A stretch of 64,000 nucleotides of DNA from Prauserella salsuginis (GTDB taxonomy: Bacteria > Actinomycetota > Actinomycetes > Mycobacteriales > Pseudonocardiaceae), in NCBI RefSeq assembly GCF_024648885.1, contig NZ_JANBBF010000008.1, forward strand, positions 682,001 through 746,000. The letters run 5' to 3'. The notes beneath the pieces were generated by a model. The model was not told where the DNA came from. It searched no databases and saw only the letters and a program-made list of their open reading frames with translations. Within the stretch, counting starts at the first letter, position 1; the number at the start of each line of letters is the position of its first letter. Shown in pieces: positions 9,321 to 30,991 of this stretch. A program made the position numbers and the translations under genes.

Positions 9321-10820
<1,500 letters not shown>

Positions 10821-10884: not shown

Positions 10885-12201
10885 TCAGACGGCGGCGATC
10901 GACTCGCCGAGGATGCCGAGCGCCTCGGTGGTCTCCTCGTCGGCGAGCGTCATCGGCGGGGCGAGGCGCAGCACGTTGCCGTGCAGTCCGCCCTTGCCGA
11001 TGAGCAGGCCGCGCGCCTTGGTCTCCTCCAGGACCCTGCCCGCAGCGGCCGGGTCCGGTTCGTCGCCGCCTGGCCGCACCAGTTCGATCCCGATCATCAG
11101 GCCCTTGCCCCGGACGTCGCCGACGAGGGCGTACCTGCCCTGGATGTCCCGCAGGCCGGCCATCAGCGCCGCGCCCTGTTTCGCGGCGTTGCCCTGCAGG
11201 TCGTGGTCGAGCACGTACTCGAGGGTCGCCTGCGCTCCCGCCGTGGCGATCGGGTTGCCGCCGAACGTGGAGATCGAGTTCGCCCCGAGGCAGTCCATGA
11301 CCTCGCCGCGGGCGACGACACCGCCGATGGCCAGGCCGTTGCCCAGCCCCTTGGCGAACGTCATGATGTCCGGCGTCACGCCGTGCGCGTCGATGCCCCA
11401 GAAGTGTTCGCCGGTGCGGCCCCAACCGGTCTGGACCTCGTCGGAGATCAGCAGGATGCCGTGCTCGTCGAGCACCTCCTTGAACGCGCCGAACAGGCCG
11501 TCGGGCGGCGTGGCGAAACCGCCGACGCCCTGGATCGGCTCGGCGATGAGCGCCGCCACGTCACCGGAGGTGGTCGTGCGCAGTACGTCGCGCAGATCCT
11601 CGGTGCAGGCCTCGATGTAGCCGGCGTCGTCGAATCCGGAGAACGGACCGCGGTAGCGGTAGCCACCGTGCACGTAGCTGACCTTCACCGGGGAGAGCGA
11701 ACTCGCCGACCACCCGCGGTTGCCGGTGATGCCGACCGTGCCGAACGCCCTGCCGTGGTACGAGTTGCGCAACGCCAGGATCTGGTTGCTGCGCCGGTAC
11801 TGCGTGGCCAGCATCAGCGCGGTCTCGTTCGCCTCCGTGCCGGAGTTGGTGAAGAACACCTTCGCGTCCGGGATGCCCGACAGCTCGGCGATGCGCTCGG
11901 CGAGTTCGACCTGCTTGCGGATCAGATACAGCGTCGAGGTGTGCAGCACGCCCGAGTCGAGCTGCCGGCGCACGGCGTCGGAGATCTCGGCCACGTCGTA
12001 GCCGATCGCGTTGGTGAGGATGCCGGCGAAGAAGTCGAGGTAGGTCCGGCCGTCGCCGTCGGTGACCCGCCTGCCGTCGGCGCTCACGATCTCGATCGGC
12101 TCGTCGTAGTAGAGGGACAGCCAGCTCGGCAGCACGGCACGGTGACGGTCGAGCAGGGGGCGGTCGGGCGGGTGGCTTCGCGACAGGTCCGGTTCCGTCA
12201 T
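10885..12201 (-). CDS. Class III omega-aminotransferase (beta-alanine or AGXT2-like)
   Basis: A 438-residue PLP enzyme of the class III aminotransferases. Visible marks are GTEAN (121-125, phosphate binding), Asp254 in SDEVQTG and the Schiff-base lysine Lys284 in TFAKGLGNG. The sequence resembles alanine-glyoxylate aminotransferase 2 and beta-alanine/beta-aminoisobutyrate transaminases. With mmsA downstream and a pyrimidine-degrading operon divergent, beta-alanine or 3-aminoisobutyrate is the likely amino donor (inference). The ATG at 12201 starts just inside the divergent promoter region shared with pucR, where a palindrome lies. Confidence 0.9.
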   Translation of the reverse strand: MTEPDLSRSHPPDRPLLDRHRAVLPSWLSLYYDEPIEIVSADGRRVTDGDGRTYLDFFAGILTNAIGYDVAEISDAVRRQLDSGVLHTSTLYLIRKQVELAERIAELSGIPDAKVFFTNSGTEANETALMLATQYRRSNQILALRNSYHGRAFGTVGITGNRGWSASSLSPVKVSYVHGGYRYRGPFSGFDDAGYIEACTEDLRDVLRTTTSGDVAALIAEPIQGVGGFATPPDGLFGAFKEVLDEHGILLISDEVQTGWGRTGEHFWGIDAHGVTPDIMTFAKGLGNGLAIGGVVARGEVMDCLGANSISTFGGNPIATAGAQATLEYVLDHDLQGNAAKQGAALMAGLRDIQGRYALVGDVRGKGLMIGIELVRPGGDEPDPAAAGRVLEETKARGLLIGKGGLHGNVLRLAPPMTLADEETTEALGILGESIAAV

Positions 12202-12310: not shown

Positions 12311-13966
12311 ATGTACCCGACGGTCGGCGACGTACTCGCACTGCCCGTGATGCGGCAGGGCGGGCCCCACGTCGTGGCGGGCGCCGACGGTCTCGACACC
12401 CCGGTGCGATGGGTCCACGTCGCCGAGATCGCCGAGATCGCCCCGCTGTTGAAAGGCGGCGAGCTGGTGCTCACCACCGGGGTCGCGCTGCCGGACGACG
12501 ACGCGACGCTGGCTCGGTACGTCGACGACCTGGCCGCCGTCGGCGTGGCGGGCGTGGTCGTGGAGCTCGTGCGGCACTGGCACCACCGGCTGCCGCAGGC
12601 GCTGGTCGTCGCGGCGGACAAGCACCGGCTGCCGCTGGTGACGTTGTCGCGGGAGACGCGGTACGTGACGGTGACCGAGACGGTGAACGGGCTCATCGTC
12701 GACGCCCAGGTCGACGAACTGCGGGCCGCGGCTCAGGTGCACGAGACGTTCACCGAGCTCACCGTCTCCGGCGCGGAACCGCAGGTGGTGCTGCGCGAGG
12801 TGGCGCGCCTGACCGGGCACGCCGTGGTGCTGGAAACGCTCAGCCACGAGGTGTTGGCCTACGACGCGGCGGGCGCGGACCCGGCCGAGCTGCTGGCCGA
12901 CTGGAAGCAGCGCTCACGCCGGGTGCGGACCGGCGAACGCACCGGATACGACCGCGCCTCGGGCAGGCTGGTGGCCATCGTGGGCGCCCGCGGGCGCGAC
13001 TGGGGACGGCTGGTGCTGCTGTGCGGGGAGCAGCCGCCGCACCGGCACGTCGTGGTGGCCGAACGTGCCGCGTCGGCACTCGCCGTGCACCACCTGCTGG
13101 CCGCCGGTGGCGACAGTCTGGAGCGGCAGGCCCACCGTGACGTGCTCCGGCAACTGCTCGCCACACCGTCGACGGTCACCCCGCTCGCCGAGCTGGTCGC
13201 GCGCGCCGAAGCGCTGCACGTGCCGCTGACCGGCCACCGCCTGATCGGCGCCGCGATCCGGCCGCGGCTGTCGGACCTGCCCGGCCCGCCTGCGGCGGCG
13301 TCGACCGGGCCACTGTTGCGCGACCTCGCGGAGGCGACGGCACTGGCGACCCGCCGGGCGCGCGCGGCCGCGCTGGTCGCCGACCTCGACGGCATCGGCG
13401 TCCATGTACTGCTGGCACTTTCGCCCCGGGCCGACACGGACGCGGTACTGCGCCGTCTTGCCGGCGAGGTGCGGCAGGCGAAGCAGGCGGTGCCGCTCGT
13501 GCTGGCCGTCGGCACCGCCGTGGACCGGCCCGCCGACGCCGGTCGCAGCCTCGCCGAGGCCGGGCACGTCGCCTCGGCGGCGCTGCACCGCGACGAGAAT
13601 CCGCCCGGCGGCTATCACCGGCTCGACGACGTGCGGCTGCACGGTCTGCTGCATCTGCTCTCGGACGACGACCGACTGGGCGCTTTCGCCCGGCGCGAGC
13701 TCGGCCCGTTGCTGGCGAAGGACGCGGCGACCGGCAGCCGCCTCGTCGAAGCGCTGCGCCGGTTCTGCGACCACGGCGGCAACAAGTCGGCGGCGGCCGC
13801 GGCGGCACACACCTCACGGACGGCGTACTACCAGCAATTGGCGCGCATCGAAGCGGCGCTGAACGTCTCGCTCGAGGACCCGGAGTCCCTCGTCTCACTG
13901 CATGTCGCCCTGCTGATCCACGACGTACTCACCCCATCGGGCGATAACAACCACTCGACGGAGTAG
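12311..13966 (+). CDS. PucR family transcriptional regulator
   Basis: A 551-residue regulator. The N-terminal PucR domain spans about residues 1-125 (MYPTVGDVLALP, then the VRWVHVAEIAEIAPLLKGGE block). A GGDEF-like/CdaR central region follows. A C-terminal HTH_30 domain contains the helix-turn-helix near SAAAAAAHTSRTAYYQQLARIE. PucR proteins usually activate nucleobase-catabolism genes. ATG 12311 is chosen for the GGAGGTGAC immediately before it. It is divergent from the aminotransferase-mmsA pair and upstream of the pyrimidine operon, so it is the likely regulator of both. Confidence 0.93.
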   Translation: MYPTVGDVLALPVMRQGGPHVVAGADGLDTPVRWVHVAEIAEIAPLLKGGELVLTTGVALPDDDATLARYVDDLAAVGVAGVVVELVRHWHHRLPQALVVAADKHRLPLVTLSRETRYVTVTETVNGLIVDAQVDELRAAAQVHETFTELTVSGAEPQVVLREVARLTGHAVVLETLSHEVLAYDAAGADPAELLADWKQRSRRVRTGERTGYDRASGRLVAIVGARGRDWGRLVLLCGEQPPHRHVVVAERAASALAVHHLLAAGGDSLERQAHRDVLRQLLATPSTVTPLAELVARAEALHVPLTGHRLIGAAIRPRLSDLPGPPAAASTGPLLRDLAEATALATRRARAAALVADLDGIGVHVLLALSPRADTDAVLRRLAGEVRQAKQAVPLVLAVGTAVDRPADAGRSLAEAGHVASAALHRDENPPGGYHRLDDVRLHGLLHLLSDDDRLGAFARRELGPLLAKDAATGSRLVEALRRFCDHGGNKSAAAAAAHTSRTAYYQQLARIEAALNVSLEDPESLVSLHVALLIHDVLTPSGDNNHSTE

Positions 13967-14601: not shown

Positions 14602-16218
14602 ATGGCGTCGACGACCGCACAACTCCGCCACCCGGACGGTCGGGTGGAACTACGCGATGCGTCGTCACTTCACGGAAGCCGGTTCTTCAACGACGAACTA
14701 GCCCCGGTACCCGTCGAGCGACGAACCTGGACCACCTACAACTACTTCGCGTTGTGGAACGGAATGGCCTTCAACCTTCCGTCCTATCTGCTCGCGTCCG
14801 GCCTGATCGCCATCGGCATGAACTGGGTGCAGGCCTTCATGACGATCGCGATCGGCAATGTGATCGTTCTCGTGCCGATGCTGCTCAACAGCCACGCGGG
14901 AACGAAATACGGTATTCCGTTCCCCGTCTTCGCCCGGGCGTTTTTCGGTGTTCGCGGCGCGAATCTGGCCGCGCTGCTGCGCGGGCTCGTGGCCTGTGGC
15001 TGGTTCGGCATCCAGACCTGGGTCGGCGGCCAGGCCGTCTTCGTCATCCTCGGCAAACTGTTCGGTGACGGCTGGACCGGCGCCGCGGAGTTCTACGACC
15101 AGCCGTGGACCCTGTGGCTGTGCTTCGCCGCGTTCTGGGCGCTGCAGATGGCGATCATCTGGCGCGGCATGGAGGCCATCAAACGGCTCGAGAGCTGGGC
15201 CGCACCGCTGGTCACCGTCGGTTTCGTGATCCTGCTGATCTGGATCCTCATCAAGGCCGGCGGTTTCGGCCCGATCTTCTCGCAGGAGTCGCAGCTGGGC
15301 TGGGGCGCGGAGTTCTGGGCGGTGTTCGCGCCGTCGCTGACCGGCATGATCGCCTTCTGGGCGACGCTGTCGTTGAACATGCCGGACTTCACGCGGTTCG
15401 GGCAGGGCCAGCGGAAACAGGCGTGGGGGCAGGTGCTCGGGCTGCCGACCACGATGTCGTTCATCGCGATCATGTCGATCATGATCACCTCGGGCGGCAT
15501 GGTGGTCTACGGCGAGGCCATCTGGGACCCCGTCGAACTGGCCAGCCGGTTCGACTCGCCGATCGTGGTGATCGCCGCACTCCTCGGCATCGTGCTCGCC
15601 ACGATCACCACCAACCTGGCGGCGAACACGGTCAGCCCCTCCTACGACTTCTCCAACGCGTTCCCGCGCAGGATCAGCTTCCGCATGGGCGGGCTGATCA
15701 CCGGCGTCATCGGCGTCGTGATCCAGCCGTGGCGGCTCATCTCCGATCCGAACATCTACATCTACGCCTGGCTGGGCTTCTACGGCGGCGTGCTCGCCAC
15801 GACCGCAGGAGTGCTCGCCGCGGGGTACTGGGTCCAGGCACGCCGAACGCTGTCGCTGACCGATCTGTTCGCCGACGGCGGCGGACGCTACTGGTTCACG
15901 GGCGGCTGGAACTGGCGCGCCCTCGCGGCGACTGTCATCGGTGCGGTCTTCGCCGTCGGCGGGGCGTACTCCGCGCCGGGCGAGGGGCCCTTCCCCGCCG
16001 ACGGGCTCATCCCGATTCTTCAGCCCCTCTACGACTACAGCTGGATCGTCGGCCTCGTGGTCGCGTTCCTGGCATTCCTCGCGCTCTCGCTGCCCGGTGG
16101 CGGCGGGTCGAACAACCCGACCTCGGACAACCCCAAGTCGCACAACCCGATTCCGGAGGAGGAAACAGGTGAACGAAGTGGTGAGGGCCGCCCTGGTCCA
16201 GCAGCGGTGGACCGGTGA
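14602..16218 (+). CDS. NCS1 family nucleobase/hydantoin permease
   Basis: A 538-residue membrane transporter of the nucleobase:cation symporter-1 family (the Mhp1/PydP/allantoin permease type). About twelve hydrophobic segments are visible between residues 50 and 500. Family landmarks include the N-terminal NYFALWNGMAFNLPSY stretch, GWFGIQTWVGG and LNMPDFTRFG. The genes that follow make uracil, dihydrouracil or hydantoin-like compounds the likely cargo (inference). The hydrophilic C-terminus (about 505-538) overlaps the next gene by 50 bases. The 197-base gap before it contains the SSI terminator and presumably its promoter. Confidence 0.93.
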   Translation: MASTTAQLRHPDGRVELRDASSLHGSRFFNDELAPVPVERRTWTTYNYFALWNGMAFNLPSYLLASGLIAIGMNWVQAFMTIAIGNVIVLVPMLLNSHAGTKYGIPFPVFARAFFGVRGANLAALLRGLVACGWFGIQTWVGGQAVFVILGKLFGDGWTGAAEFYDQPWTLWLCFAAFWALQMAIIWRGMEAIKRLESWAAPLVTVGFVILLIWILIKAGGFGPIFSQESQLGWGAEFWAVFAPSLTGMIAFWATLSLNMPDFTRFGQGQRKQAWGQVLGLPTTMSFIAIMSIMITSGGMVVYGEAIWDPVELASRFDSPIVVIAALLGIVLATITTNLAANTVSPSYDFSNAFPRRISFRMGGLITGVIGVVIQPWRLISDPNIYIYAWLGFYGGVLATTAGVLAAGYWVQARRTLSLTDLFADGGGRYWFTGGWNWRALAATVIGAVFAVGGAYSAPGEGPFPADGLIPILQPLYDYSWIVGLVVAFLAFLALSLPGGGGSNNPTSDNPKSHNPIPEEETGERSGEGRPGPAAVDR

Positions 16219-17011
16219 CAAGGATTCGATGATCCAGGCGTCCGTCGACGCCATCGCCTCGGCGGCCTCGCAGGGCGCGCAGGTGGTGTGCCTGCAGGAA
16301 CTGTTCTACGGACCCTACTTCTGCCAGGTACAGGACACCGAGTACTACTCCTACACCGAAGCGGTTCCCGACGGCCCGACGACCCGGCTCATGCAGGAGG
16401 TGGCCGAACGGCACGGCATCGTGGTCGTCGCCCCGATGTACGAGCAGGAGCAGCCAGGCTTGCTGTACAACACGGCAGCGGTGATCGACGCGGACGGCAC
16501 CTATCTCGGCAAGTACCGCAAGAACCACATTCCCCAGGTGAAGGGATTCTGGGAGAAGTTCTACTTCCGTCCCGGCAACACGGGCTATCCGGTGTTCGAC
16601 ACGGCCGTGGGGCGCATCGGGGTGTACATCTGTTACGACCGGCACTTCCCGGAGGGCTGGCGGGCGTTGGGCCTGGCGGGCGCGAAGATCGTGTTCAACC
16701 CGTCGGCGACGAGCCGCGGCCTGTCGCAGTACCTCTGGCGGCTCGAGCAGCCCGCCGCGGCGGTGGCCAACGAGTACTACGTCGGCGCGATCAACCGGGT
16801 CGGCGTGGAACCGTTGGGCGACAACGATTTCTACGGCCAGACCTATTTCGCCGACCCGCGGGGACAGCTGGTCGGTGACGCGGCCTCGGACACCGACGAC
16901 GAGGTCGTCGTGCGTGACCTGGACATGGGCAAGCTCGCCGAGGTGCGGAACCTGTGGGCGTTCTACCGCGACCGTAGGCCCGACTCGTACGACACGCTGG
17001 TGAAACCCTGA
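16169..17011 (+). CDS. Beta-ureidopropionase (N-carbamoyl-beta-alanine amidohydrolase)
   Basis: A 280-residue nitrilase-superfamily enzyme that hydrolyses N-carbamoyl-beta-alanine to beta-alanine, CO2 and ammonia. The catalytic triad is visible: Glu44 (LQELF), Lys118 (KYRKNHIP) and Cys155 (YICYDRHFPE). The GTG at 16169 lies inside the permease gene and has a strong GGAGGAGGAAACAG ribosome site, giving a 50-base overlap in another frame. Thirteen bases separate its stop from the dihydropyrimidinase start. Length and motifs match bacterial PydC/N-carbamoylputrescine-type amidases; the neighbours favour the pyrimidine substrate. Confidence 0.93.
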   Translation: MNEVVRAALVQQRWTGDKDSMIQASVDAIASAASQGAQVVCLQELFYGPYFCQVQDTEYYSYTEAVPDGPTTRLMQEVAERHGIVVVAPMYEQEQPGLLYNTAAVIDADGTYLGKYRKNHIPQVKGFWEKFYFRPGNTGYPVFDTAVGRIGVYICYDRHFPEGWRALGLAGAKIVFNPSATSRGLSQYLWRLEQPAAAVANEYYVGAINRVGVEPLGDNDFYGQTYFADPRGQLVGDAASDTDDEVVVRDLDMGKLAEVRNLWAFYRDRRPDSYDTLVKP

Positions 17012-17024
17012 GGAGGCCGATCCG

Positions 17025-18422
17025 ATGCGCACTCTGATCCGCGGCGGCACCGTGCTCAGCAGCACCGGTGCCGTGACCGCCGACGTCCTCGTCGACGGCG
17101 AGACGATCGCCGCCGTGACCGCCCCGGGCATGCTGGCCGGGCAGAACGTGGAGGTCGACACCGAGTTCGACGCCACGGGCAAGTACGTCATGCCGGGCGG
17201 GATCGACGCCCACACGCACATGGAGATGCCGTTCGGGGGCACGTTCTCGGCCGACACGTTCGAGACGGGAACCCGTGCCGCCGCGTGGGGCGGAACGACG
17301 ACGATCATCGACTTCGCCGTCCAGCCCAAGGGCAGTTCCCTGTTGTCCACACTGGACAACTGGCACGAGAAGGCCGACGGCGACTGTGCCGTCGACTACG
17401 GTTTCCACATGATCGTCTCCGACGTCAACGACGCGACGCTCAAGGAGATGGAGTCGTGCGTGGCCGCCGGGGTGAGCAGCTTCAAGATGTTCATGGCCTA
17501 TCCCGGGGTGTTCTACTCGACCGACGGCGAGATCCTGCGCGCGATGAACAAGGCGGCCGACATCGGCGGCACGATCGCGATGCACGCCGAGAACGGCATC
17601 GCGATCGACGAACTCGTCGCCCGCGCGCTCGCCGAGGGCAGGAGCGAGCCGTACCAACACGGTGTTACCCGTCCCCCGGAGCTGGAGGGCGAAGCGACGT
17701 CGCGTGCGATCACCCTCGCCAAGGTCACCGGGTCACCGCTGTACATCGTGCACCTGTCGGCCGCACAGGCACTCTCGGCCGTGGCCGAGGCGCGGGACGA
17801 GGGGCAGAACGTCTTCGCCGAGACGTGCCCGCAGTATCTGTACCTGTCCATCGAGGACCTCGGAAAGCCCGATTTCGGAGGAGCCAAGTACGTCGCCTCT
17901 CCCCCGCTGCGCGAGAAGCACCACCAGCCCGACCTGTGGCGGGGCCTGCGTACCAACGACCTGTCGGTGGTCTCCACCGACCACTGCCCGTTCTGCTTCA
18001 AGGACCAGAAGGAGCTCGGGCGCGGCGACTTCACCAAGATCCCGAACGGCATGCCCGGTGTCGAGCACCGCATCGACCTGCTGCACCAGGGTGTGGTGGC
18101 CGGCGAGATCTCCCTGGCCCGCTGGGTCGAAGCGTGTTCGACGACGCCGGCCCGCATGTTCGGGTTGTATCCCCGCAAGGGCGTGATCGCACCGGGCGCC
18201 GACGCCGACATCGTCGTCTACGACCCGGCGGCCGAGCAGACCATCTCGGCCGAGACGCATCACATGAACGTCGACTACTCCGCATACGAGGGCATGACGG
18301 TCACCGGCCGGTGCGAGACCGTGCTCTCCCGCGGCAGCGTCGTGGTCGACCGCGGCACCTACCACGGCCGAGCGGGACACGGCCGGTTCCTCGAACGCGA
18401 CCTGTGCCAGTACCTGAACTGA
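17025..18422 (+). CDS. hydA: Dihydropyrimidinase
   Basis: A 465-residue cyclic amidohydrolase that opens dihydrouracil/dihydrothymine (or hydantoins) to N-carbamoyl-beta-amino acids. Binuclear metal ligands are all present: His63 and His65 (DAHTH), carboxylated Lys154 (SSFKMFMAY), His187 (AMHAEN), His243 (IVHLS) and Asp319 (STDHCPF). An AGGAGG site precedes the ATG. It follows beta-ureidopropionase directly, which supports the pyrimidine rather than the allantoin reaction. Allantoinase is the main alternative and cannot be excluded from sequence alone. Confidence 0.94.
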   Translation: MRTLIRGGTVLSSTGAVTADVLVDGETIAAVTAPGMLAGQNVEVDTEFDATGKYVMPGGIDAHTHMEMPFGGTFSADTFETGTRAAAWGGTTTIIDFAVQPKGSSLLSTLDNWHEKADGDCAVDYGFHMIVSDVNDATLKEMESCVAAGVSSFKMFMAYPGVFYSTDGEILRAMNKAADIGGTIAMHAENGIAIDELVARALAEGRSEPYQHGVTRPPELEGEATSRAITLAKVTGSPLYIVHLSAAQALSAVAEARDEGQNVFAETCPQYLYLSIEDLGKPDFGGAKYVASPPLREKHHQPDLWRGLRTNDLSVVSTDHCPFCFKDQKELGRGDFTKIPNGMPGVEHRIDLLHQGVVAGEISLARWVEACSTTPARMFGLYPRKGVIAPGADADIVVYDPAAEQTISAETHHMNVDYSAYEGMTVTGRCETVLSRGSVVVDRGTYHGRAGHGRFLERDLCQYLN

Positions 18423-18434
18423 GAGGAGCCGGGT

Positions 18435-19433
18435 GTGGACTTCGGAGTGGTGCTGCAGACCGATCCGCCCGCGCGGGACGTCGTGCGGCTGGCTGGCCTG
18501 GCCGAGGACGAGGGTTTCCGCTACGGGTGGACGTTCGACTCGGTGGTGCTGTGGCAGGAACCGTTCGTCATCTATTCGCAGATCCTCGCCGCGACGTCGT
18601 CGATGACGGTCGGGCCGATGGTGACCAGCCCCGGTACGCGGGACTGGTCGGTGCTGGCCTCACTGTTCGCGACGCTCAACGAGATGTACGGCAACCGCAC
18701 GGTGTGCGGCATCGGCCGCGGCGATTCGGCGCACCGCGTCATCGGCAAACCTCCGTCCACATTGGCCACCCTCCGCGACTGTATGGCTACCGTGAAGGAT
18801 CTGGCCGAGGGCCGCGAGACGACCCTGCACGACACCGCGGTGCGCATACCGTGGGTGTCGGGCGGCAGGCTGGAGATGTGGATGGCCGGTTACGGGCCGA
18901 AGGCGCTGCAAACGGTCGGACAACACGCCGACGGTTTCATCCTGCAGTGCGCGGACCCGGCCATCGCACGGTGGACGATCGGTGCCGTGCGCGACGCGGC
19001 GAGCGCCGCGGGCCGTGATCCGGAGGGCATCACGATCTGTGTCGCTGCTCCAGCCTACGTCGGCGACAACGTGGCGCACCAACGGGAGCAGTTGCGCTGG
19101 TTCGGCGGCATGGTCGGCAACCATGTGGCCGACCTCGTCGCACGCTACGGCGACTCGGGGCCCGTGCCGAAGGAGCTGACCGACTACATCGCGGCGCGGG
19201 ACGGGTACGACTACGCCCATCACGGTCGCGCCGGCAACCCGTCGACGGATTTCGTACCGGACGAGATCGTCGAGCGATTCTGCCTGACCGGTCCCGCCGA
19301 GGCCCATGTCCGGCGACTGGAGGAACTCGCCGAGCTGGGTGTCGACCAGTTCGCCGTCTACCTCATGCACGACCGGCGCGAGGAGACACTGCGAGCCTAC
19401 GGCCGCGACGTCATCGGCAAGCTCGCCGCATGA
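18435..19433 (+). CDS. Luciferase-like (F420/FMN) oxidoreductase, TIGR03842-type
   Basis: A 332-residue TIM-barrel protein of the luciferase-like monooxygenase superfamily, resembling the TIGR03842 group of putative F420-dependent oxidoreductases. Marks are the N-terminal MDFGVVLQTDPP, the TSPGTRDWSVLAS and GRGDSAHRVIGK blocks and AGYGPKALQTVGQHADGFILQ. The true function and cofactor are unknown. It starts 12 bases after the dihydropyrimidinase gene and ends the operon. No dihydropyrimidine dehydrogenase is visible in the window, so it is a candidate for the missing uracil-to-dihydrouracil step or another pyrimidine redox step (inference). GTG start after GAGAGGAGCC. Confidence 0.88.
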   Translation: MDFGVVLQTDPPARDVVRLAGLAEDEGFRYGWTFDSVVLWQEPFVIYSQILAATSSMTVGPMVTSPGTRDWSVLASLFATLNEMYGNRTVCGIGRGDSAHRVIGKPPSTLATLRDCMATVKDLAEGRETTLHDTAVRIPWVSGGRLEMWMAGYGPKALQTVGQHADGFILQCADPAIARWTIGAVRDAASAAGRDPEGITICVAAPAYVGDNVAHQREQLRWFGGMVGNHVADLVARYGDSGPVPKELTDYIAARDGYDYAHHGRAGNPSTDFVPDEIVERFCLTGPAEAHVRRLEELAELGVDQFAVYLMHDRREETLRAYGRDVIGKLAA

Positions 19434-19605: not shown

Positions 19606-20415
19606 TCAGCCGTTGGCGGCCTCCTCGGCCGCCCGCTCGGCGGCCTTCTCCTCGCGCCAGGTCTCGTCGTCGGCGCCGCGGCGCCAGTACCCGGAGATCG
19701 ACACCCGGTCGCGGGAGACATCGCACTCGTGCAGCAGGTACCGGCGCAGGTCGCGGACGAACCCCGCCTCGCCGTGGACGAACGCCTGCACCCCTGCCGC
19801 GGGGAAGTCGAGCTCGCGCACCGCGGCGACGAGGTCGTCGCCGCGGGACCGGTGCAACCAGTGCACCTGGGCGTCGGCCTTCGTCACGAGCGGCAGCTGT
19901 TCGTGCTCGTCCTCGACCAGTACGAAGACCCGGGCATCGGCACCGTCCGGCATCGCCTCGAGCGCGTTGGCGATGGCCGGCAGCGCACTCTCGTCGCCCA
20001 CGAGCAGGTGACAGTCGGCCTCGTCCGACGGCGCGTAGCCGCCGCCGGGACCGACCAGCAGCACCTCGTCGCCCTTGTCCAACCGGGCCGCCCACGGGCC
20101 CGCCAGCCCGCGATCGCCGTGATGGACGAAGTCGAGGACGAGTTCGCGGGCGTCCGGATCGAATCCGCGCACGGTGTAGGTCCGCATCCGGGGCCGCTGC
20201 TCGGCGGGCAGGTCGGCCAGGTCGAGCGGATCCGGATAGGTCACCCCGTCCGGCGCGAACAGCACCTTGACGTAGCTGTCGGTGCACGTGTTCGGCGTGA
20301 ACGCCGCGAGGCCGTCGCCGCCACAGACGACGCGGATCAGGTGCGGGGTGAGACGTTCGGTGCGCCGCACCTCGGCGCGCATCACCGGCCTACTGCGACC
20401 TCGCTTCTCGACCAT
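19606..20415 (-). CDS. Siderophore-interacting protein (flavin-dependent ferric-siderophore reductase)
   Basis: A 269-residue protein of the ViuB/SIP family, which releases iron from imported siderophores by reduction. The FAD-binding beta-barrel includes RMRTYTVRGF (FAD site, RxYTxR) and VLDFVHHGDRGLAGPWA. The C-terminal SIP/NAD-binding half contains LLVGDESALPAIANALE, HGEAGFVRDLRRYL and SGYWRRG. The ATG at 20415 is chosen because AGGAG lies eight bases upstream; a GTG five codons earlier is possible. An IdeR-like box lies just before the gene, consistent with iron repression. Confidence 0.93.
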   Translation of the reverse strand: MVEKRGRSRPVMRAEVRRTERLTPHLIRVVCGGDGLAAFTPNTCTDSYVKVLFAPDGVTYPDPLDLADLPAEQRPRMRTYTVRGFDPDARELVLDFVHHGDRGLAGPWAARLDKGDEVLLVGPGGGYAPSDEADCHLLVGDESALPAIANALEAMPDGADARVFVLVEDEHEQLPLVTKADAQVHWLHRSRGDDLVAAVRELDFPAAGVQAFVHGEAGFVRDLRRYLLHECDVSRDRVSISGYWRRGADDETWREEKAAERAAEEAANG

Positions 20416-20444
20416 CCGTGCACTCCTCACCTCACGTCGTTCCC

Positions 20445-25065: not shown

Positions 25066-26853
25066 TCACTCCGAGACGGCGAGCGCCGTGAGCGCCGTGG
25101 GCGCGTCCTCCGGCCGCTCGGCCATCGGCTCGAACTCGTTGATGGCGCTCAACGAGGTGCCCATCGAGATGTTGGTGACACGCTCGAGGATCACCTCCAC
25201 GACCACCGGCACCCGGTACTCCTCGGCCTGGCTCACCGCCTTCTCGAGGGCCCCGCGGATCTTCTCCGGGTCCTCGACGCGGAGGGCCTTGCAGCCGAGC
25301 CCCTCGGCGACGGCGACGTGGTCCACGCCGTAACCGGCGTTGCGCCCCGTCGCGTTGATGTTGTCGAAGGCGAGGGAGACCTCGTAGTCCATCTCGAAGC
25401 CGCGCTGGGCCTGGCGGATCAGCCCCAGGTACGAATTGTTGACCACGACGTGGACGTACGGGATCCGGTGCTGGGCACCGACGGCGAGCTCCTCGACCAT
25501 GAACTGGAAGTCGTAGTCGCCCGAGAGCGCGACGACGGTCGTGTCCGGCAGGGCGCGGGCCACCCCGAGCGCCGCGGGCCCGGTCCATCCGAGCGGCCCT
25601 GCCTGGCCGGCGTTGATCCAGGACCGCGGCCGGTAGGCGTGCAGCATCTGCGCACCGGCGATCTGGCTGAGTCCGATGGTGGTCACGTAGGTGACCTCGC
25701 GCCCGAAGGCCGCGTTCATCTCCTGGTAGACCCGCTGCGGCTTGATCGGCACGTCCTCGAAGTGAGTCTTGCGCTGCAGCGTGCCCTTGCGTGCGGCGCA
25801 CCGGCGCGCCCAGTCGGCGAAGCCGAGCCCGCGGCCGCCCTCCGCTCGACGGCGCGCGGCCGTCAACAGGGCCTCCAGCGCGGCTCCCGCGTCCGAGACC
25901 ACCGAGTAGTCGGGCGCGAACACCCTTCCGATCTGGGTGGGCTCGATGTCGACGTGGATGAAACGCCGTCCCGACCGGTAGGTCTCCAGGTCGCCGGTGT
26001 GCCGGTTGGCCCAGCGGTTGCCCAGACCCAACACCACGTCGGATTCGAGGAACGTGGCGTTGCCGTAGCGGGTGTGGGTCTGGATGCCGACCATGCCCGC
26101 CATCAACGGGTGGTCGTCCGGGATGGCACCCCAGCCCATCAGCGTGGGCGAGACCGGGATGTCCAGCAGCTCGGCGAGTTCGACCAGCTCATCGGCCGCG
26201 TCGGCGTTCAGCACGCCCCCGCCGGCGACGATCAGCGGCCGCTCGGCCTCCGCGAGCATGTCCAGGATCTTCTCCGCCTGGGCCTCGGTGGCCCTCGGCG
26301 TGATCACCGGCAGCGGCTCGTAGGTGTCGATGTCGAACTCGATCTCGGTCTGCTGGACGTCCAGCGGCAGGTCGATGAGCACCGGCCCCGGCCGCGAGGA
26401 CCGCATCAGCTGGAAGGCCTTCTGGAACGTGCCGGGAACCTGGGCGGCTTCCAGCACCGTCTTGGCCATCTTGGTCAGCGGCGCCGCGATGGAGGCGATG
26501 TCCACCGCCTGGAAGTCCTCCTTGTCCAGCACGGCCACCGGCGCCTGTCCCGTGATGCACAGGATGGGCTGCGAGTCGGCCTGCGCGGCGTAGAGGCCGG
26601 TGATCATGTCGGTGCCCGCTGGGCCCGACGTCCCGATGCAGACCCCGATGTTGCCCGGGGCAGCGCGGGTGTAGCCGTCGGCCATGTGGGAGGCGCCCTC
26701 CACATGGCGCGCCAGCGTGTGGCGGATCCCTCCGCGGGCCTTCATCGCCGAGTACAGCGGGTTGATCGCCGCACCGGGCAGCCCGAAGGTCTCCACAGCG
26801 CCCTCCTTCTCGAGGATGAGCGCTATCGCATCAACTGCGCGCATGCGTGTCAT
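25066..26853 (-). CDS. gcl: Glyoxylate carboligase (tartronate-semialdehyde synthase)
   Basis: A 595-residue thiamine-diphosphate enzyme that joins two glyoxylates into tartronate semialdehyde and CO2. The decisive mark is [13 protein letters not shown], where Val51 replaces the catalytic glutamate of other ThDP enzymes, as in E. coli Gcl. The ThDP/Mg motif [13 protein letters not shown] with the following NN is present near residues 450-480. ATG 26853 has AAGGAGG upstream. It sits 84 bases after glxR on the same strand. Confidence 0.96.
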
Positions 26854-29161: not shown

Positions 29162-29284
29162 TTCAAGCTTCGACCGTGCAAGACCGCCGCCCCACGGCCT
29201 CCGGCGCCCGCGCCGCCGCGAGCCCCATCGATGCCGTACGACCCGGGCGGCGGTAGGCACGACACCTCAGAAAGGTGCTCAACG

Positions 29285-30991
29285 ATGAGCAAGAAGACCT
29301 CCCGAGACGCGCAGCCGCGGCAGGCGAACCCGCCCTCCCCGGAGCGCCCGGAGGATGAACGGCTGCCCCTCGGCAAGCTCGCCACGTTCGGGTTGCAGCA
29401 CGTGCTCACGATGTACGGCGGGCTGATCGCCGTCCCCCTGATCGTCGGCGGGGCCGCCGGGCTGAGTGCCGACCGCACGGCGGTGCTCGTCACCGCGAGC
29501 CTGTTCATCGGCGGCCTGGCCACGGTGCTGCAGAGCGTGGGACTACCGTTCCTCGGCTCCAAACTGCCCCTGGTGCAGGGCGTGTCCTTCGCGTCGGTCG
29601 CGACGATGGTGGCGATCCTCGCCGGACCCGGCAACGACCTGTCCACGGTGGCGGGCTCCATCGTCGCGGCCAGCATCCTGGGTTTCGTGGTGGCGCCGTT
29701 CTTCGCCCGTATCATCCGGTTCTTCCCACCGGTGGTCACCGGAGTGGTCATCACCGCCATCGGCCTGACGCTGGTACCGGTGGCCGCGGACTGGGCGATG
29801 GGCGGTGACTCCGAGTCCGACGACTACGGTTCGCTGGCCAACATCGGCCTGGCGTTCCTGACGCTCGTGATCATCCTGCTGCTGAGCAAGGTCGGCTCGG
29901 CGACGCTGTCGCGACTGTCCATTTTGCTGGGTCTCGTCGGCGGAACCCTCGTCGGCGCACTGCTCGGGCTGACCGATTTCAGCGAGGTGGGCTCCGGCTC
30001 GCCGGTCGCCGCACCGGAGTTCCTGGCCTTCGGCGTGCCGGAATTCGACATCGCCTCGATCATCTCGATGACCATCGTCATCCTGGTGATCAAGACCGAG
30101 ACCGCCGCCGACATCATCGCGGTCGGCGAGATCATCGGCACGTCGGTCGACCGCCGCCGGATCGCCAACGGTCTGCGCGCCGACATGCTCTCCTCGGCCG
30201 CGGCCCCGCTGTTCGGTTCCTTCACCCAGTCCGCCTTCGCCCAGAACGTCGGCCTCGTGGCCCTGACCGGGGTCAAGAGCCGCTTCGTGGTCGCCAGCAG
30301 TGGTGTCATCATGATCGTGCTGGGGCTGCTGCCGATCTTCGGCCAGGTCATCTCGGCGATCCCGATGCCGGTGCTCGGCGGGGCCGGCGTCGTCCTGTTC
30401 GGCACGGTGACCGGGTCCGGCATCCGGAACCTGCGCAGCGTGTCCTACGACGGCAACATGAACCTCATCATCGTGTCGACCTCGCTGGCGTTCGCGATGA
30501 TCCCGGTGGTGAAGGAGGACTTTTACCACCACTTCCCCGAGTGGTTCCAGACGATCTTCCACTCCGGCATCTCGTCGGCGGCCATCATGGCGGTGCTGCT
30601 GAACCTGTTGTTCAACGAGCTCACCGCCGGCAATTCCCGCAACCCGTCGGTGTTCGCCGCCAAACCGGTGCGGGTGCTCTCCCCGTCGGATCTGCGGGAC
30701 CTGCGCGAAGGCGACGTGTTCGTCGACGGGCGGTTCGTCGACTGCGACGGCGAGGAGGTCCCGCTGGTGCCCGACGACAAGCTCGAGGAGGTCCGCGCGA
30801 AGATCGAGTGCGGCGAGATCACCGACACCAGCCAGATTCCCGAGGTGGTCGCCCCCGACGGAGACGACCCGTCGGATGCGGGACCCGACGGCGGCGGCAC
30901 CGGACGCACCGACGAGACAGGCGCCGCGCAGGAGCCGCCCCGGCCCCGGCGCGAGCCCCAGGTCCACGGCACGGCCGAACGCCAGGACTGA
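29285..30991 (+). CDS. NCS2 family xanthine/urate permease
   Basis: A 568-residue transporter of the nucleobase-ascorbate (NCS2) family with about 12-14 hydrophobic segments between residues 30 and 450. The family signature QNVGLVALTG is intact near residue 321, and the conserved KTETAADIIAVGEI segment precedes it. These favour a purine (urate or xanthine) substrate. A charged cytoplasmic tail of about 110 residues follows the last helix and is Asp/Gly/Pro-rich. ATG 29285 follows AAAGGTG. It is divergent from the glyoxylate operon and shares its regulatory region. Confidence 0.93.
   Translation: MSKKTSRDAQPRQANPPSPERPEDERLPLGKLATFGLQHVLTMYGGLIAVPLIVGGAAGLSADRTAVLVTASLFIGGLATVLQSVGLPFLGSKLPLVQGVSFASVATMVAILAGPGNDLSTVAGSIVAASILGFVVAPFFARIIRFFPPVVTGVVITAIGLTLVPVAADWAMGGDSESDDYGSLANIGLAFLTLVIILLLSKVGSATLSRLSILLGLVGGTLVGALLGLTDFSEVGSGSPVAAPEFLAFGVPEFDIASIISMTIVILVIKTETAADIIAVGEIIGTSVDRRRIANGLRADMLSSAAAPLFGSFTQSAFAQNVGLVALTGVKSRFVVASSGVIMIVLGLLPIFGQVISAIPMPVLGGAGVVLFGTVTGSGIRNLRSVSYDGNMNLIIVSTSLAFAMIPVVKEDFYHHFPEWFQTIFHSGISSAAIMAVLLNLLFNELTAGNSRNPSVFAAKPVRVLSPSDLRDLREGDVFVDGRFVDCDGEEVPLVPDDKLEEVRAKIECGEITDTSQIPEVVAPDGDDPSDAGPDGGGTGRTDETGAAQEPPRPRREPQVHGTAERQD

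Follow-up and report, generated by a model that had tools for sequence, protein, structure and literature searches.

A luciferase-like TIGR03842 protein is a candidate F420H2-dependent uracil reductase in pyrimidine-degrading operons of Actinomycetota

The last gene of a pyrimidine-degrading operon in Prauserella salsuginis most likely encodes an F420H2-dependent uracil/thymine reductase of the luciferase-like (LLM) class. We assign this reading a probability of about 0.8, and infer the substrate, cofactor use, direction and chemistry. The reading is based on the lack of a PreA-type dihydropyrimidine dehydrogenase over cut-off in the genome, a conserved linkage of the gene family with dihydropyrimidinase, and the F420 cassette that accompanies the same family in Leisingera. 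A sequence-only reading of the window, the whole analysed stretch of 64,000 nucleotides, had suggested an alternative uracil reductase, which these three observations strongly support; the step on another heterocycle that it had also named is a minority possibility. The focal enzyme probably serves as a functional, non-homologous replacement of dihydropyrimidine dehydrogenase (PydA/PreTA).

Focal gene and surrounding operon

The focal gene starts with GTG, 6 bases after a Shine-Dalgarno-like GAGGAG, and encodes 332 residues (Table 1). As had been read from the letters, it begins 12 bases after hydA, whose stop codon occupies 18420-18422. The protein matches TIGR03842 (F420_CPS_4043) over the full length of the model (positions 1-328 of 329); in NCBIfam this family is a hypothetical equivalog whose model name states no substrate. 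PF00296 is the sole Pfam domain. Prauserella halophila, the nearest relative found, has an LLM protein with 94% identity.

Table 1. Features in and around the pyrimidine operon, in positions of the window
Feature	Position	Strand	Evidence
CoA-acylating (methyl)malonate-semialdehyde dehydrogenase (step 5)	9321..10820	-	TIGR01722 680 bits, cut-off 448
Class III aminotransferase, proposed beta-alanine/beta-aminoisobutyrate aminotransferase (step 4)	10885..12201	-	PF00202 304 bits; kept in clusters
PucR-family regulator, divergent from aminotransferase arm	12311..13966	+	PF07905 + PF13556
Small predicted secreted protein, 133 aa	14003..14404		Subtilisin-inhibitor-like by eye; no NCBIfam match
NCS1 nucleobase:cation symporter	14602..16218	+	TIGR00800 411 bits, cut-off 353; PF02133
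Nitrilase-superfamily N-carbamoyl amide hydrolase, proposed beta-ureidopropionase (step 3)	16169..17011	+	PF00795
hydA, dihydropyrimidinase (step 2)	17025..18422	+	TIGR02033 590.7 bits, cut-off 393; PDB D-hydantoinase/dihydropyrimidinase 540 bits
TIGR03842 LLM-class protein, proposed F420H2-dependent uracil/thymine reductase	18435..19433	+	TIGR03842 565.5 bits, cut-off 295.45; F420-Mer-like fold; linkage
Siderophore-interacting FAD protein	19606..20430	-	
Glyoxylate carboligase	25066..26853		1061 bits
Xanthine-type NCS2 permease	29231..30991		

All steps from dihydropyrimidine to acyl-CoA are encoded around the focal gene, the beta-ureidopropionase being assigned by context. From the gene set listed in the sequence-only reading, the permease, dihydropyrimidinase and semialdehyde dehydrogenase score over their cut-offs, whereas gene context is the basis for naming a beta-ureidopropionase and a beta-alanine aminotransferase. 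In the PDB, the nitrilase-type protein matches beta-ureidopropionase (193 bits) as well as it does carbamoylputrescine amidohydrolase (195 bits), and its top NCBIfam model is N-carbamoylputrescine amidase, under cut-off. The LLM protein had been described as the only redox enzyme of the operon; indeed, no other oxidoreductase is encoded in the co-directional operon, but the divergent arm adds the semialdehyde dehydrogenase.

The gene for the small predicted secreted protein separates that of the PucR regulator from the permease gene. The gene for the siderophore-interacting FAD protein, located 3' of the LLM gene, recurs in most Prauserella/Amycolatopsis loci and is absent from other actinobacterial loci. 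The segment 25066-30991, which besides glyoxylate carboligase and the NCS2 permease holds apparent 3-oxopropionate-reductase-like and hydroxypyruvate-isomerase-like genes, would appear to be a purine/allantoin-glyoxylate cluster, not far from the pyrimidine operon.

Sequence and fold comparison

The AlphaFold2 model of the focal protein (mean pLDDT 90) aligned best with the F420-dependent Mer (Z 36, rmsd 2.4, 312 residues, 23% identity), followed by other F420 enzymes at Z 28-31 (Adf 30.6, FGD 29.9), whereas FMN luciferases reached Z 26.4 at most and RutA 23.4. Profile comparison gave a like order, with Mer, FGD2, FGD and Adf ahead of the FMN luciferases. Judged from the profiles and the modelled fold, the focal protein is closest to F420-using LLM oxidoreductases.

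Mer, which catalyses an F420-dependent hydride transfer, is the closest solved relative, at about 25% sequence identity; the focal protein stays below the Mer cut-offs of TIGR03555/PRK02271 (97.7 versus 348.7 and 111.2 versus 276 bits). Mer has a Glu at position 6, the residue mutated in entry 8qq8, where V, I or C stands in the present family, and the motifs GRGDSAxRV, RWFxxMVGNHVAD and RxGYDYxxHG are specific to TIGR03842. Among others, W40, S98, R101, W222-F223, MVGNHVAD and RxGYDYxxHG are kept in both clades and not in Mer; these residues may take part in pyrimidine binding.

The same comparisons bear on the FMN enzyme RutA, to which an analogy had been drawn. A RutA-like, FMNH2/O2-dependent ring-opening monooxygenase would share the superfamily of the focal protein, and RutA structures do align with it, at the Z given above. 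Nevertheless, we regard such an activity as highly improbable, given that F420 enzymes are much nearer in sequence and fold, that in Leisingera and Paracoccus TIGR03842 is linked to npdG and the F420 biosynthesis genes, and that a RutA product would need no dihydropyrimidinase. RutA (TIGR03612) is missing among the NCBIfam matches of the protein at E<=0.001, and no protein of the genome exceeds the RutA cut-off. The analogy was rejected on both model and fold.

First step and F420 supply in the Prauserella genome

The PreA search that the sequence-only reading had called for found no protein over cut-off in the whole genome (5.64 Mb, 99.95% complete), the best score being 103 bits versus 335. 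The focal protein itself gave no PreA model match and holds no dihydroorotate-dehydrogenase-type FMN/Fe-S domains in NCBIfam or Pfam. A genome search for the dihydroorotate-dehydrogenase-type family gave three matches: class II PyrD, a class IB protein encoded at C5:263611, and a third, weak one. The class IB protein is the best PreA scorer, and scores 301 bits as dihydroorotate dehydrogenase type IB (cut-off 269). It lies in a second cyclic-amide cluster (L019:5671-13400; G000:C5, about 260.7-268.4 kb) together with dihydroorotase/allantoinase-like, MmgE/PrpD, MFS transporter, M20 carbamoylase and PyrK-like genes, and this cluster looks like an orotate-degrading route.

One might assign the LLM protein to another step, such as one on a semialdehyde, given that Adf and FGD are F420 LLM enzymes acting on aldehydes/alcohols, and leave the first reduction to an unrecognised enzyme. 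The C5:263611 protein, which belongs to the PreA superfamily and has a PyrK-like partner, would then be a candidate. We consider this scenario very unlikely. Clusters of Acidimicrobiia hold the semialdehyde dehydrogenase and the LLM gene together, and the C5 protein was rejected as a hidden uracil reductase on its dihydroorotate dehydrogenase score, its dihydroorotase/allantoinase-like and carbamoylase neighbours, and the absence of a comparable match in P. halophila, whose LLM protein is 94% identical to the focal one.

F420 can be made in this organism, as its genome encodes CofD (393 bits, cut-off 257), and can be reduced by F420-glucose-6-phosphate dehydrogenase (FGD; 583 bits, cut-off 420). 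NpdG was not found over cut-off in the genome; thus, FGD is the likely F420 reductase in Prauserella.

Linkage with dihydropyrimidinase across Actinomycetota

In an evenly drawn sample of 396 Actinomycetota genomes, TIGR03842 is present in 79 and HydA in 114, and 72 genomes hold both, against about 23 expected (Fisher odds ratio 67, p about 2e-40, with phylogeny ignored and the genomes not independent). The two genes share a contig in 63 genomes and lie within 15 kb of each other in 60 of these; 57 of the 60 close pairs are on the same strand, many of them 38-90 bases apart. By hand count the arrangement spans 17 family-level groups, and given this recurrence it is far past chance. Seven carriers have no HydA over cut-off, mostly short-contig assemblies and one with a partial HydA; in several of them other pathway genes adjoin the LLM gene.

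A survey of 80 TIGR03842 loci, with flanks of 10 kb where the contig allows, found HydA in 72, HydA plus amidase in 67, the aminotransferase in 47 and PreA/PreT in none. Two Streptomyces loci with full flanks lack HydA beside the TIGR03842 gene, yet have it elsewhere in the genome. The amidase slot varies between lineages, being filled by a nitrilase or an unrelated M20 enzyme, whereas the LLM protein is constant.

PreA exceeded its cut-off in 2 of the 396 genomes but in none of the 79 carriers; nor did it do so in 49 additional carrier genomes that were reached from other loci. One of the two PreA genomes (G257) encodes a PreT-PreA-Zn amidase-HydA cluster without TIGR03842, the only PreTA-HydA cluster seen; this single case shows the pattern expected if PreTA and TIGR03842 substitute for each other. 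CofD is found in 73 of the 79 carriers versus 140 of the 317 non-carriers, and the six carriers without it are fragmented assemblies.

As HydA-type enzymes open hydantoins too, gene context does not single out one ring. An F420H2 reductase in the same slot might instead act on orotate, a 5-substituted uracil, a 5-ylidene hydantoin or a purine-derived ring, and both substrate names are indeed listed among the PDB matches of HydA. Moreover, related Mer-like LLM proteins adjoin HydA in purine-type clusters, and an F420 'yanthine reductase' has been proposed in Chloroflexota (PMC12507026). Such a substrate is nonetheless unlikely in our view: the class III aminotransferase and the TIGR01722 dehydrogenase provide a beta-amino-acid end that fits uracil/thymine and not hydantoins, and the Prauserella genome holds a separate cluster, at C5, that is likely to serve orotate.

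The purine-type case is locus L143 (G384:C164:17000-36000), in which a Mer-like LLM gene outside TIGR03842 lies directly 5' of HydA, with PntAB downstream and, on the upstream side, genes for an 8-oxoguanine deaminase and a BMP/B6-type ABC transporter. The locus is possibly an actinobacterial parallel to the Chloroflexota proposal, with F420 used on a purine-derived ring.

Proteobacterial plasmid loci

Leisingera plasmids carry, within one locus, an NCS1-hydA-Zn hydrolase-aminotransferase-PntBA (NAD(P) transhydrogenase) arm and a divergent arm of cofG, cofH, cofD, cofC, cofE, npdG and TIGR03842. From its gene content, the latter arm would cover the synthesis of F420, its reduction with NADPH and its use, and the former would degrade dihydropyrimidines, so that the locus appears to be a self-contained F420 route without the dehydrogenase. 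In Paracoccus alcaliphilus, cofGHDCE-npdG-TIGR03842 adjoins an ABC transporter; no HydA was seen within the roughly 75 kb viewed, which counts against the proposed function. A search of 72,556 plasmid records at E 1e-50 found TIGR03842 only in Leisingera, Paracoccus and one Streptomyces; the proteobacterial evidence comes from plasmids of two genera.

The F420 cassettes of Variovorax, Paraburkholderia and Sinorhizobium carry LLM proteins other than TIGR03842, which indicates that the TIGR03842-HydA link is specific; the Sphingobium FO-synthase locus showed no LLM protein. On pSymA of S. meliloti (L151) the cassette is bundled with a different LLM protein, dihydroorotase-like and deacylase genes, a CoA-transferase, PntAB and a xanthine-dehydrogenase family gene, and on a Variovorax plasmid (L148) with a different LLM protein, an amidohydrolase, a nitrilase and RidA. 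These two bundles suggest that F420 cassettes travel with single catabolic tasks.

Proposed mechanism and implications

The gene content enables us to propose a putative pathway. Initially, uracil, and probably also thymine, would be imported via the NCS1 permease, while F420 would be reduced by FGD in Prauserella and by NpdG with NADPH in Leisingera. Next, on the TIGR03842 enzyme, F420H2 would donate a hydride from its C5 to the pyrimidine C6 and the pyrimidine C5 would be protonated, yielding dihydrouracil or dihydrothymine. The potential of F420 is lower than that of NADPH, which should favour uracil reduction. Afterwards, HydA would open the ring and the amidase would strip the carbamoyl group. 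Finally, the class III aminotransferase and the CoA-acylating semialdehyde dehydrogenase would convert beta-alanine or beta-aminoisobutyrate to acetyl-CoA or propionyl-CoA.

We consider it probable that TIGR03842 constitutes a new enzyme class, which adds a further electron-donor variant to the reductive pyrimidine pathway in about one fifth of the sampled Actinomycetota and is, in some alphaproteobacteria, the dedicated reason for a complete F420 cassette. If so, a curated family of 'unknown' function would gain one, and the missing first step of pyrimidine catabolism would be filled in many actinomycetes. The reason why Proteobacteria make F420, listed as unanswered in a 2021 review (PMC8498797), would be partly explained for some of them. 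Organisms that lack dihydropyrimidine dehydrogenase would also be predicted to reduce fluoropyrimidines, and biocatalysis would gain a small uracil reductase free of Fe-S.

Comparison with known systems

A literature search, with most subscription journals and all preprints outside its reach, found no F420-dependent uracil reductase described; the kasichelin paper discusses a thymine route and not the TIGR03842 family. In the reductive pathway, the known first enzymes are PydA/PreTA forms that depend on NADPH, NADH or ferredoxin (PMC7332683). The present operon has the dihydropyrimidinase, ureidopropionase, aminotransferase and semialdehyde dehydrogenase in common with the Pyd pathway (PMC7332683), and its proposed first step is likewise the reduction of uracil. 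However, PydA adopts an FMN/Fe-S dihydroorotate-dehydrogenase fold, whereas the focal protein is one small LLM-fold protein without Fe-S and a proposed user of F420H2. RutA resembles it in its luciferase-like superfamily and its place in pyrimidine catabolism, but opens the ring oxidatively with FMN and O2 and is much less similar in fold. The F420 luciferase-family reductase proposed in 2025 for purine-derived yanthine would act on a different ring in another phylum, Chloroflexota, and is reminiscent of the present proposal in that an F420 LLM protein would take the place of an Fe-S reductase ahead of a cyclic amidohydrolase (PMC12507026).
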